NCBI GenBank assembly: GCA_020073705.1
Contig: JAIQES010000003.1
Span: 1-64,000, forward strand
Reading direction: 5' to 3'
Origin: Terriglobia bacterium
Lineage (GTDB): Bacteria; Acidobacteriota; Terriglobia; Acidiferrales; UBA7541
Length of the DNA: 64,000 nucleotides
The first letter of the stretch is position 1; the number at the start of each line of letters is the position of its first letter. A program made the position numbers and the translations under genes. The notes beneath the pieces were generated by a model, which worked only from the letters and a program-made list of their open reading frames with translations, searched no databases and was not told the origin of the DNA. Positions 31,726-34,915 of the stretch are shown here, piece by piece.

Positions 31726-31896
31726 TTACACGCCGAGGTCGGGGATGTTTTCGAGGGCGTCGTTGAAACGGTTGTTGAAATTCGCCACGCAGATCACAAC
31801 TGTCAGCTCGATGATCTGTCCTTCGTCGTAGAACTTGTGCAATTCTTCGAGTTCGGCGGCGCGAATCGCCGCCTTTTCATCTCGTCGAACGACGGT
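31726..31896 (-). pseudogene. Carboxymuconolactone decarboxylase-family C-terminal remnant
   Basis: On the minus strand a 56-codon open stretch reads LEELHKFYDEGQIIEL, then TVVICVANFNNRFNDAL, and ends at TAA. This fits the C-terminal helices of AhpD/carboxymuconolactone decarboxylase-like proteins, where 'F(S/T)D.EI.ELT..I...N..NR' is typical. An in-frame TGA (31897-31899) precedes it, there is no start codon, and the N-terminal half with the CxxC or catalytic region is missing. It is too short for the ORF track. It is probably the 3' relic of a deleted gene. Confidence 0.6.
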
Positions 31897-31993
31897 TCAC
31901 CGTGAACGGTTGAACCGCGTGCGCCTGAGTGTTAGCCTATTTGTAGAATGCAACGGTCCAAGCCCTCCACGGAGGACCCTTCACTTGAAGGGT
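31893..31993. repeat. Cluster of perfect palindromes before the acyl-AMP ligase fusion gene
   Basis: Three perfect palindromes lie in 100 bases: CGGTTCA/TGAACCG enclosing GTTCACCGTGAAC (31893-31917), CCTCCACGGAGG (about 31964-31975), and ACCCTTCA/TGAAGGGT (31976-31993). The GTTCAC..GTGAAC motif recurs inverted inside the next gene at 32297-32309. Confidence 0.6.
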
Positions 31994-32029: not shown

Positions 32030-34915
32030 ATGGCCTCTCCCGTACGACAATTCGATGCAGCCGCGGACGAAGAGCGTTTGCTCGACGTCGTGCGCGCCCT
32101 CATCTCCGAGCTTGGTCATCAACCTGCCCTAGCATCGGTTCGAGCGGCGGCGCACCTGGAGCGCGAATTGGGCCTTGGCAGCCTCGAGCGCGTCGAATTG
32201 CTGGTGCGCCTCGAGCAGGCTTTCGGCACACGTCTCGATGAACGCGTCCTGGCCGAAGCTAACACGGTGCAGGACTTGATCACAGCGCTCAGTGCCGTGA
32301 ACGGTTCACCGGGAACGGTCTCCGTGAACGGTCCACCCGCTACGGGGGCACTGCGCGGCGCCATCGCAACGCGCGCACCAAGAATGCTCTCCAGCGAAAT
32401 CGCGGAAGGACTTCCCACCGCGGAAACGTTCCAAGAGGTGCTGCGCCGGCGCGGGCGCGCCGACGCGGCGCAAACGCACTTGATTTTTTTCGAGGACGAA
32501 GCTGAAAGCCCATCCCTGACGTTCGGCGAGCTTCTTGCCGGAGCCGAGCGCGTCGCGGCGGACCTCGAACAGCGCGGAATTGGACGCGGCGACACCGTCG
32601 CCATCATGCTGCCGACGTCGCGTGAATTCTTTCTGATATTCGCGGGCACTTTGCTCGCCGGCGCAACGCCCGTGCCGATTTACCCGCCGTTTCGCGCCGA
32701 CCGCATCGAGGAGTATGCGGGACGGCAATCCGCGATCCTAACAAATGCGGGCGCGCGCTTACTGGTCACTTTCCGCGAAGCCGCGCGCGTGGCAAAGCTG
32801 CTCAAACCGCGCGTCCGCTCGCTCGAGGAAGTTGTCACCGCCACGGCATTGGTGGAATCACGCGCCGCCGCGCCGATCGGGCGGCAGTTGCACTCGCGCG
32901 GCGAGGACCTCGCCTTGCTGCAATACACCTCAGGCTCCACGGGCCATCCCAAAGGCGTCATGTTGACGCACGCAAACCTGCTGGCCAACGTCCGCGCGAT
33001 CGGCGAAGCGCTCGCCGTCCGCTCCGACGACGTTGGCGTAAGCTGGCTGCCGCTGTACCATGACATGGGCCTGATCGGAGCATGGTTCATGCCGCTCTAT
33101 TTCGGCCTGCCGGTTGTCATGCTCTCGCCGCTGGCGTTTCTTTCGCGGCCCGGACGCTGGCTCCGCGCGTTCGATCTCCACCGCGGCACGCTCGGCGCGG
33201 CGCCGAATTTCGCGTACGAGCTGGCCGTGGCCAAAATCTCCGACGCCGACCTCGAAGGACTCGACCTGAGCTCGTGGCGCGCAGCCCTGAATGGCGCCGA
33301 GCCGGTTCTCCCCGCGACGCTCGATCGTTTCGCCGAGCGCTTTGCGCGCTGTGGTTTCCGCCGCGAAGCGCTTCTGCCAGTCTACGGATTGGCAGAAGCG
33401 TCGGTCGCCGTGACGATCCCGCAACTTGGCCGCGGGCCGCGCGTGGACCGCGTCGAGCGCGACGCGTTTGAACGCGAAGGCCGAGCGGTTCCGGCAACAC
33501 CCCATGTGCCAGCTGATGATGCGGACGTGATCTCGTTTGTTTCGGTAGGACGCGCGATTCCACGGCACGAAGTGCGCATCGTGAATGACTTGGGCGGAGA
33601 CACCGGCGAGCGTGTGGAGGGGCAGCTCTGGTTTCGCGGGCCCTCGGCCACGCGCGGCTACTATCGGAACGATGCGGCCACCGCCGCTCTATTTCCCAAG
33701 GGCGCGGCTGAGGGCTGGATCAACTCCGGCGACCGTGCGTACCAGGCCGAAGGCGAAATCTACATCACCGGACGCGTAAAAGACATCATCATCCAGGCCG
33801 GGCGGAATCTCTACCCCCACGAAATCGAAGACGTCGTGGCGCAGGTGCCGGGCGTGCGCAAAGGCTGCGTCGTCGCGTTTGGCGCGGCCGATCGCACGAC
33901 GGGAACCGAGCGGCTGGTCGTCGTCGCCGAGACGCGCGAGCGCGATCAGGCGGCGCGAGAGCGCATCGCGCAGGCGATCACCGCCCAGATCTCGACTGCC
34001 CTGGGTTTGCCTCCCGATGTGGTCACGGTTGTCCCGCCAAACTCGATTCCGAAAACATCGAGTGGAAAACTTCAGCGGGACGCCACAAAGAAGCGGTTTC
34101 TCTCCGGTGAGCTTGGTTCGGCCGCCCCGCCAGCTTGGTTGCAGATTACGCGGCTTGCGGTGGCGTCAAGCGTCGGGCGGATTCGTCCCGCGCTGCGTCG
34201 CGCGGGAGAGATTGTGTATGGCTGCTATGCCGTCGCGCTGTTCGGCGTCTGGATAGTGCCGGCGTGGTTGCTCGTGCTGGTTGCACCTTCACGTCAAGCG
34301 GCAGCGCGTTTCACGACGGCGGCGCTGCAGGTATATCTGGCGTTGGCGGGATGGCGCGTGCGCATCGAGGGGCGCGAACACCTACAGGAACGCGTCCCGC
34401 GCATGTTTGTTTCGAATCACACCAGCTACGCGGACGTGCTCGTCCTGATGGCGGCGCTCGGCGTGGACTATCATTTCGTCGCCAAGAATGAAGTAGGGTC
34501 CATGCCGTTCGTTCGCACGTTTCTTCGCAAACTCGGCCACTTCGCATTTAATCGCGAAGATTCCCGCGCGCGCTTGCAGCAGGCAGACGAGATCGAACAG
34601 GCTCTGCAGGGCGGGGAATCCGTGTTCATCTTTCCCGAAGGGACGTTCACCGCGCAGGCCGGTGTGCGGCCGTTCCAACTCGGCGCATTCAAGGCGGCGA
34701 TCGCCGCGAAGCGGGCCGTCGTGCCGGTCGCGCTCAACGGAACCCGCCGCGTACTCCGCGACGGCACCTGGCTGCCGCGTCGCTCGCGCATCACGATCAC
34801 GATCTGCCCACCGATCTTTCCGCAGGCTGACGCGCCGGACTGGCACGAAATCGTGCGTGTGCGCGATGCCGCACGCGAGATGATTGCTCGTTACACGGAC
34901 GAACCTCTGCTCTAA
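32030..34915 (+). CDS. ACP / fatty acyl-AMP ligase / PlsC acyltransferase fusion
   Basis: The 961-residue protein has three parts. Residues 10-85 are an acyl carrier domain with the phosphopantetheine serine in LGLGSLERVELL. Residues 125-690 are an AMP-forming ligase of the FAAL/acyl-CoA synthetase type, with YTSGSTGHPKGVMLTH and the GRVKDIIIQAGRNLYPHEIE motif. After a hydrophobic segment (YAVALFGVWIVPAWLLVLVA), residues 755-955 are a PlsC-type glycerophosphate acyltransferase with NHTSYADVL and FPEGTF. The likely reaction chain is fatty acid activation, loading on the built-in ACP, and transfer to a membrane lipid acceptor. It resembles E. coli Aas in function but with reversed domain order and its own ACP. 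The linker after the ACP is encoded by a repetitive palindromic sequence. It starts at ATG 32030 with only a weak SD. Confidence 0.85.
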   Translation: MASPVRQFDAAADEERLLDVVRALISELGHQPALASVRAAAHLERELGLGSLERVELLVRLEQAFGTRLDERVLAEANTVQDLITALSAVNGSPGTVSVNGPPATGALRGAIATRAPRMLSSEIAEGLPTAETFQEVLRRRGRADAAQTHLIFFEDEAESPSLTFGELLAGAERVAADLEQRGIGRGDTVAIMLPTSREFFLIFAGTLLAGATPVPIYPPFRADRIEEYAGRQSAILTNAGARLLVTFREAARVAKLLKPRVRSLEEVVTATALVESRAAAPIGRQLHSRGEDLALLQYTSGSTGHPKGVMLTHANLLANVRAIGEALAVRSDDVGVSWLPLYHDMGLIGAWFMPLYFGLPVVMLSPLAFLSRPGRWLRAFDLHRGTLGAAPNFAYELAVAKISDADLEGLDLSSWRAALNGAEPVLPATLDRFAERFARCGFRREALLPVYGLAEASVAVTIPQLGRGPRVDRVERDAFEREGRAVPATPHVPADDADVISFVSVGRAIPRHEVRIVNDLGGDTGERVEGQLWFRGPSATRGYYRNDAATAALFPKGAAEGWINSGDRAYQAEGEIYITGRVKDIIIQAGRNLYPHEIEDVVAQVPGVRKGCVVAFGAADRTTGTERLVVVAETRERDQAARERIAQAITAQISTALGLPPDVVTVVPPNSIPKTSSGKLQRDATKKRFLSGELGSAAPPAWLQITRLAVASSVGRIRPALRRAGEIVYGCYAVALFGVWIVPAWLLVLVAPSRQAAARFTTAALQVYLALAGWRVRIEGREHLQERVPRMFVSNHTSYADVLVLMAALGVDYHFVAKNEVGSMPFVRTFLRKLGHFAFNREDSRARLQQADEIEQALQGGESVFIFPEGTFTAQAGVRPFQLGAFKAAIAAKRAVVPVALNGTRRVLRDGTWLPRRSRITITICPPIFPQADAPDWHEIVRVRDAAREMIARYTDEPLL
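32297..32309. repeat. GTGAAC-GTTCAC palindrome inside the fusion gene linker
   Basis: GTGAAC G GTTCAC (32297-32309) is followed within 35 bases by degenerate copies (GGGAACGGTCTCC, GTGAACGGTCCACC). They code for the flexible linker VNGSPGTVSVNGPP between the ACP and ligase domains and match the palindrome at 31895. Confidence 0.6.

Follow-up and report, generated by a model that had tools for sequence, protein, structure and literature searches.

Aas of E. coli joins a transferase (residues 1-203) to a synthase (residues 204-719), has no ACP domain, and is paired with the MFS lysophospholipid flippase LplT (PMC11416262). Fatty acyl-AMP ligases (FAALs), which usually serve PKS/NRPS, are described in PMC8460268 (eLife 2021) as refusing CoA through W224, M231 and F279 of the E. 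coli enzyme (EcFAAL), prolines such as P226, and a FAAL-specific helix at 252-258; the same paper mentions FAAL-lysophospholipid acyltransferase fusions and ascribes them to PKS/NRPS-independent functions. In the MFS-PlsC-AMP proteins represented by models PRK08633 and PRK06814, PlsC and an acyl ligase share one chain and carry out acyl-ACP chemistry.

The 64,000-nucleotide stretch of DNA analysed here (hereafter, the window) belongs to contig 13 of a draft genome of 3.79 Mb that is 97% complete, and encodes a 961-aa protein with the order ACP-FAAL-PlsC (Table 1). Like Aas, this protein would unite on one chain the making of acyl-ACP and a PlsC-family domain that acylates a lipid; unlike Aas, it has the reverse domain order, its own ACP and a FAAL-type ligase. 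The contrast drawn in an earlier note, in which Aas has the reversed order and a separate ACP, agrees with the published domain limits (PMC11416262). By analogy, the protein likely works in the manner of Aas, although it does not belong to the Aas enzymes. It resembles the fusions of PMC8460268 in joining a FAAL-like domain to a lysophospholipid acyltransferase, and the ACP, domain order, distribution, neighbours and domain losses described here go beyond the one-sentence mention in the text of that paper. Unlike PRK08633 and PRK06814 proteins, it has no MFS domain and a different order, and it scores 190 versus 1221 bits, far under the cut-off.

Domain architecture and ligase type

All three domains had been proposed to reside in one polypeptide, and this is borne out by the 961-aa frame, in which every Pfam match lies above its gathering score and the motifs are intact. 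The ligase part comprises an AMP-binding domain (148-545, 1.2e-69) and an AMP-binding C-terminal domain (591-683); the PF00550 domain holds a conserved serine, which would carry the phosphopantetheine arm, and the PF01553 domain holds both HX4D and FPEGT. We counted residue conservation over 119 aligned homologues, taking as denominators the sequences with a residue at the site. Ser51 is invariant (Table 1) and Lys680, in the PKTSSGK motif of the ligase part, is kept in 115/118 homologues, while in the PlsC domain His797 is found in 110/113, Asp802 in 112/112, Gly871 in 111/112 and Glu870 in 108/112, with Asp in its place in three more. The serine, HX4D and FPEGT, whose loss from close homologues the earlier note had named as evidence against its idea, are thus retained, and only a distant family (f6, below) is without the histidine. 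An AlphaFold2 model built from a 46-sequence alignment has a mean pLDDT of 87.3 and a pTM of 0.74. These comparisons indicate that the ACP-ligase-acyltransferase design is real, and it probably works.

Table 1. Coordinates of features in the window and, where a locus number is given, at other loci.
Feature	Position	Strand	Basis
ACP-FAAL-PlsC three-domain protein, 961 aa	32030..34915	+	single ORF, ATG start, Pfam; orthologues begin at same Met
Acyl carrier domain, residues 22-87	32093..32290	+	PF00550 1.1e-8; PDB matches are acyl carrier proteins
Ser51, predicted 4'-phosphopantetheine site, LGLGSLE	32180..32182	+	109/109 homologues with a residue there
ACP/FAAL linker, residues 88-130	32291..32419	+	variable in length and sequence; pLDDT about 46-54 at 91-120
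Fatty acyl-AMP ligase domain, residues 131-700	32420..34129	+	NF006624/PRK09192 424 bits, NF005850 442 bits; 3pbk, 3kxw, FadD32
Equivalent of FAAL-specific helix, CoA-rejecting, residues 367-372	33128..33145	+	model helix; aligned to EcFAAL 252-258
Hydrophobic segment, residues 734-752, likely membrane anchor	34229..34285	+	Kyte-Doolittle 2.47 over 19 residues
PlsC/AGPAT-type acyltransferase domain, residues 776-902	34355..34735	+	PF01553 5.2e-31; 5kym 2.5e-14; TIGR00530 94.9 bits
HX4D catalytic motif, His797-Asp802, NHTSYAD	34418..34435	+	homologue alignment
FPEGT substrate-binding motif, residues 868-872	34631..34645	+	homologue alignment; FPEGTF is 868-873
Probable sigma-70-type promoter, TTGAAC-17-TAGCCT	31910..31938	+	read from the upstream sequences of same-genus orthologues
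Palindrome GTTCACCGTGAAC, upstream	31895..31907	.	not conserved
Palindrome GTGAACGGTTCAC, linker coding sequence	32297..32309	.	not conserved
Whole PF11700 genes beside a homologue	L068:10799-12058, L093:6578-7798, L106:1-1161, L119:10824-12164, L121:2543-3799, L123:4318-5607, L137:10912-12294, L143:8766-10058		
AMP-ACP-PlsC fusions, window's own genome	L060:4328-6928, L061:262-2742	-	

The top NCBIfam scores for the ligase domain are those of FAALs. Among solved structures, sequence and fold alike place it nearest to the olefin-synthase FAAL 7r7e, the E. coli FAAL 3pbk, the L. pneumophila FAAL 3kxw and FadD32, and Foldseek ranks the crystal structures of two of these FAALs, 7r7e and 3pbk, highest (TM-score on target 0.90-0.92). 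The overall fold is thus that of a FAAL, and through the region of the FAAL-specific insertion the chain is collinear with 3pbk, 3kxw and 7r7e. By sequence alignment, the CoA-rejecting features of EcFAAL map to W339, M346, F394, P341 and residues 367-373; W339, P341 and F394 are invariant (116/116 homologues), M346 is present in 112/116, and the AlphaFold2 model has a helix at 367-372, the position of the FAAL-specific helix. A blocked CoA pocket, a proline-lined tunnel and the FAAL-specific helix can all be recognised in this way. Because the CoA-rejecting residues are near-invariant and a helix is predicted at 367-372, the ligase domain is, on alignment evidence, a true FAAL and not of the CoA-ligase type. 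FAALs depend on a carrier-borne phosphopantetheine arm, and a carrier is present on the same chain.

Two further proteins encoded in the window's genome, L060 and L061 (827 and 867 aa), likewise carry ligase, ACP and PlsC on one chain. They differ from the ACP-FAAL-PlsC protein in their order, AMP-ACP-PlsC, and in their ligases, which score as fatty acid CoA-ligase type and are without the WLPxYHDM block of FAALs. Relatives of L060/L061 occur in 36 of 51 related genomes. Judged by these sequences, they seem to represent an independent assembly, so that the joining of a carrier to an acyltransferase seems to have happened on at least two occasions.

The solved structure nearest to the PlsC domain is PlsC 5kym from T. 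maritima (2.5e-14). The best model is the AGP acyltransferase TIGR00530, whose curated cut-off of 102.95 bits is not reached by the 94.9 bits observed; models of lyso-ornithine lipid O-acyltransferases score about 63-72 bits, and the Aas model PRK08043 only 29.6 bits. By these scores the domain is PlsC-like and not Aas-like, and they do not fix the acceptor, because the domain falls just under the TIGR00530 cut-off. The same chemistry might act on another acceptor, an amino-acid lysolipid or other hydroxy-lipid instead of a glycerophospholipid, given that a lyso-ornithine lipid model also matches (72 bits) and that no adjoining lipid gene fixes the acceptor; nevertheless, we consider this unlikely, as AGP acyltransferase is the best model and the ornithine N-acyltransferase family PF13444 was not found in this genome. 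On the latter ground, an ornithine-lipid pathway was dropped as a candidate. Four other PlsC domains are encoded in the same genome, one of them a 241-aa stand-alone protein with the best PF01553 score, so the 961-aa protein need not be the housekeeping LPAAT.

In the AlphaFold2 model, the segment 734-752 forms part of a long helix (702-750) that runs up to PlsC, and the hydrophobic segment before PlsC has a hydropathy above 1.6 in 105/113 homologues. This helix is likely a membrane anchor, which accords with the membrane tethering earlier proposed.

Distribution and genomic neighbourhood

A scan of GTDB genomes yielded at least 80 loci with the ACP-FAAL-PlsC architecture, spread over many phyla, across which the domain order is constant and the length about 930-1040 aa. 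Among the loci listed are members of the Acidobacteriota, alpha-, beta- and gammaproteobacteria, Desulfobacterota, Nitrospira, Entotheonella, Planctomycetota and Actinomycetota, the last including Mycobacterium innocens and Rhodococcus aetherivorans. The three-domain protein is encoded, and its domains co-inherited, in nearly all well-assembled genomes of the window's family; among 196 fairly complete Acidobacteriota genomes the distribution is patchy, with seven full-length cases beyond the window's, one further match that begins at model position 171, and other strong matches to the FAAL region only. The NCBI name for homologues is 'AMP-binding protein' (two annotated plasmid records), and our literature search for a characterised three-domain ACP-FAAL-PlsC enzyme found none. 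The expectation that the architecture would be unusual therefore does not hold: it is widespread, and already known in passing, through the fusions mentioned in PMC8460268, but unstudied. At L044/L055 (genome G021; L055:5875-8776, minus strand), the reading frame differs between FAAL and PlsC, which points to a frameshift or an assembly error, and this case was excluded from inferences.

The neighbours of the gene in the window encode a CAAX protease, an M48 peptidase, LOG-family and VWA proteins, and what we take from its sequence to be gyrA, with dnaN and dnaA farther along. No partner lipid gene adjoins the gene at this locus, just as had been remarked, and no transporter does; synteny in the window's family involves the gyrA, LOG and VWA genes, not lipid genes. 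Unlike Aas, the protein has no LplT beside it or fused to it at this locus.

As in the Aas-LplT pair, an MFS gene adjoins some homologues, although not the window's. A gene of family PF11700 (Atg22-like, UMF1-type MFS) lies next to the homologue at 9 of the 80 loci listed, as eight whole genes (Table 1) and one fragment (L100). The hosts are distant from one another (among them Desulfobulbales, Marinobacter, Malikia and an alphaproteobacterium), and four of the genes are on the same strand as the homologue at a gap of 0 to 71 bp. PF11700, with an overlapping MFS_1 match, is the commonest family among the 102 scanned neighbour proteins, with seven members; the next has three. None of the PF11700 neighbours matched the LplT model, and a PF11700 transporter is absent from the window's genome. 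By analogy with Aas-LplT, the pairing gives indirect support for a lysolipid role, PF11700 itself not being LplT. DUF302 genes, together with genes linked to stress or to ion transport (universal stress protein, mgtA), occur within a few kb of both plasmid-borne homologues, L147 and L148 (Paraburkholderia, Methylobacterium).

Upstream of the gene, TTGAAC-TAGCCT is kept in three same-genus orthologues at a spacing of 17-18 bp, and it is a plausible promoter on this conservation. The palindromes to which the earlier note drew attention, in front of the gene and in the linker, both exist, but a role for them is unsupported: neither occurs in the three same-genus orthologues (L016-L018), which excludes them from the conserved parts of the system. 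Only six GTTCACNGTGAAC sites, the type of the first palindrome, occur in the whole genome, and the palindromes were dropped as regulatory or mobile elements. On the minus strand of the intergenic region before the gene (31740-31890) is a short frame reading to AAELEELHKFYDEGQIIELTVVICVANFNNRFNDALENIPDLGV and a stop, perhaps the end of a decayed carboxymuconolactone-decarboxylase/AhpD-type gene.

Losses of single domains

In three species of genus g7 of the window's family (G011, G023 and G032; loci L049, L050 and L051) we found a 396-401-aa ACP-PlsC protein with nothing between the two domains. These genes are at the same locus, with LOG and VWA genes and then gyrA downstream, and the fourth sampled g7 species (G254; L149, the full-length same-genus comparison) has the full three-domain protein at the same place. 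In a PlsC tree the FAAL-less proteins nest within the three-domain clade (supports 0.993, 0.924 and 0.906). No FAAL was found elsewhere in the three genomes, the best ligase matches being 27-30% identical. In g7, dN/dS is 0.22-0.26 for the orphan ACP and 0.13-0.16 for PlsC, similar to three-domain relatives; the genomes are drafts (85-98% complete), and synonymous changes are near saturation in some pairs. On this evidence an in-frame deletion took out the FAAL, and purifying selection still acts on the ACP and PlsC. Because a selected ACP-PlsC is kept without FAAL, the ACP would appear to serve the PlsC domain, and another charging route is possible. Comparison of the sequences suggests that the ACP-PlsC pair is the core, with the FAAL as one means of loading it. 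The reverse case also occurs, a close FAAL standing alone in families f3/f4.

The earlier note had described the chain as self-contained. In principle it could activate a fatty acyl group, hold it and pass it on, but the description is to be qualified in view of the three g7 species that have ACP-PlsC and no FAAL. A stronger reading is that ACP-PlsC is normally charged by FAS intermediates or another acyl-ACP synthetase, with FAAL as an accessory salvage module. The same-locus ACP-PlsC genes in three of four sampled g7 species, their nesting in the PlsC tree and their low dN/dS all speak for it; however, nearly all other homologues retain the FAAL, which is their most conserved domain, and the draft state of the g7 genomes and partly saturated synonymous sites need to be borne in mind. 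We regard this reading as improbable.

A different loss is seen in the Acidobacteriota family f6, where Arg replaces the catalytic His of PlsC in all three sampled members (L052, 6290-9061; L053; L054). They are the only three exceptions at His797, and their ACP and FAAL are intact. The f6 PlsC domain is presumably dead, and because Arg stands for the catalytic His, lipid acyl transfer is unlikely to be the f6 function. Such a loss is what might be seen if the protein were a source of acyl-ACP in trans for a PKS-like or surface-lipid pathway, with PlsC acting only as a membrane tether, and FAALs do usually serve PKS/NRPS (PMC8460268). This reading is very unlikely, however, as the catalytic His is present in 110/113 homologues and the neighbours that were examined show no recurrent PKS/NRPS family.

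Proposed function and its implications

We propose that the ACP-FAAL-PlsC protein is a membrane-associated, CoA-independent fatty-acid recycling acyltransferase, a reading which we hold, from sequence comparison, to be reasonably probable. The FAAL domain would convert free fatty acid and ATP into acyl-AMP; because its CoA pocket is blocked, the acyl group would be passed only to a phosphopantetheine arm, in the simplest case the one borne by Ser51 in the ACP of the same or a partner chain. The acyl-ACP would then hand the acyl group to the PlsC domain, which, at the inner membrane, would esterify it to a lysophospholipid or 1-acylglycerol-3-phosphate. A lysolipid acceptor, and a role in remodelling rather than de novo synthesis, would fit this scheme. 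Against it, cis loading by FAAL appears not to be indispensable, since three g7 species keep ACP-PlsC without FAAL; the His loss in f6, the lack of a PF11700 gene in this genome and the TIGR00530 score below cut-off also count against it.

A broader proposal is possible but on balance doubtful, namely that PlsC with a dedicated carrier constitutes a distinct enzyme class, its carrier being charged by the fused FAAL or, after FAAL loss, by the cell's acyl-ACP pool, and that with the adjacent Atg22/UMF1-type transporter it would form a CoA-independent system of lysolipid uptake and re-acylation that evolved separately from LplT-Aas.

The FAAL loss in g7, the His loss in f6, the PF11700 adjacency, the non-conserved palindromes and the two FACL-type fusions are new here, and with the natural FAAL-less forms one could tell cleanly whether it is the tethered carrier that matters to the acyltransferase. 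If the inferred function is true, many bacteria, among them Acidobacteriota, Pseudomonadota, Desulfobacterota and some Actinomycetota and Planctomycetota, could put free fatty acids back into membrane lipids with no need for CoA and no competition for housekeeping ACP, by means of an enzyme that databases list only as 'AMP-binding protein'.
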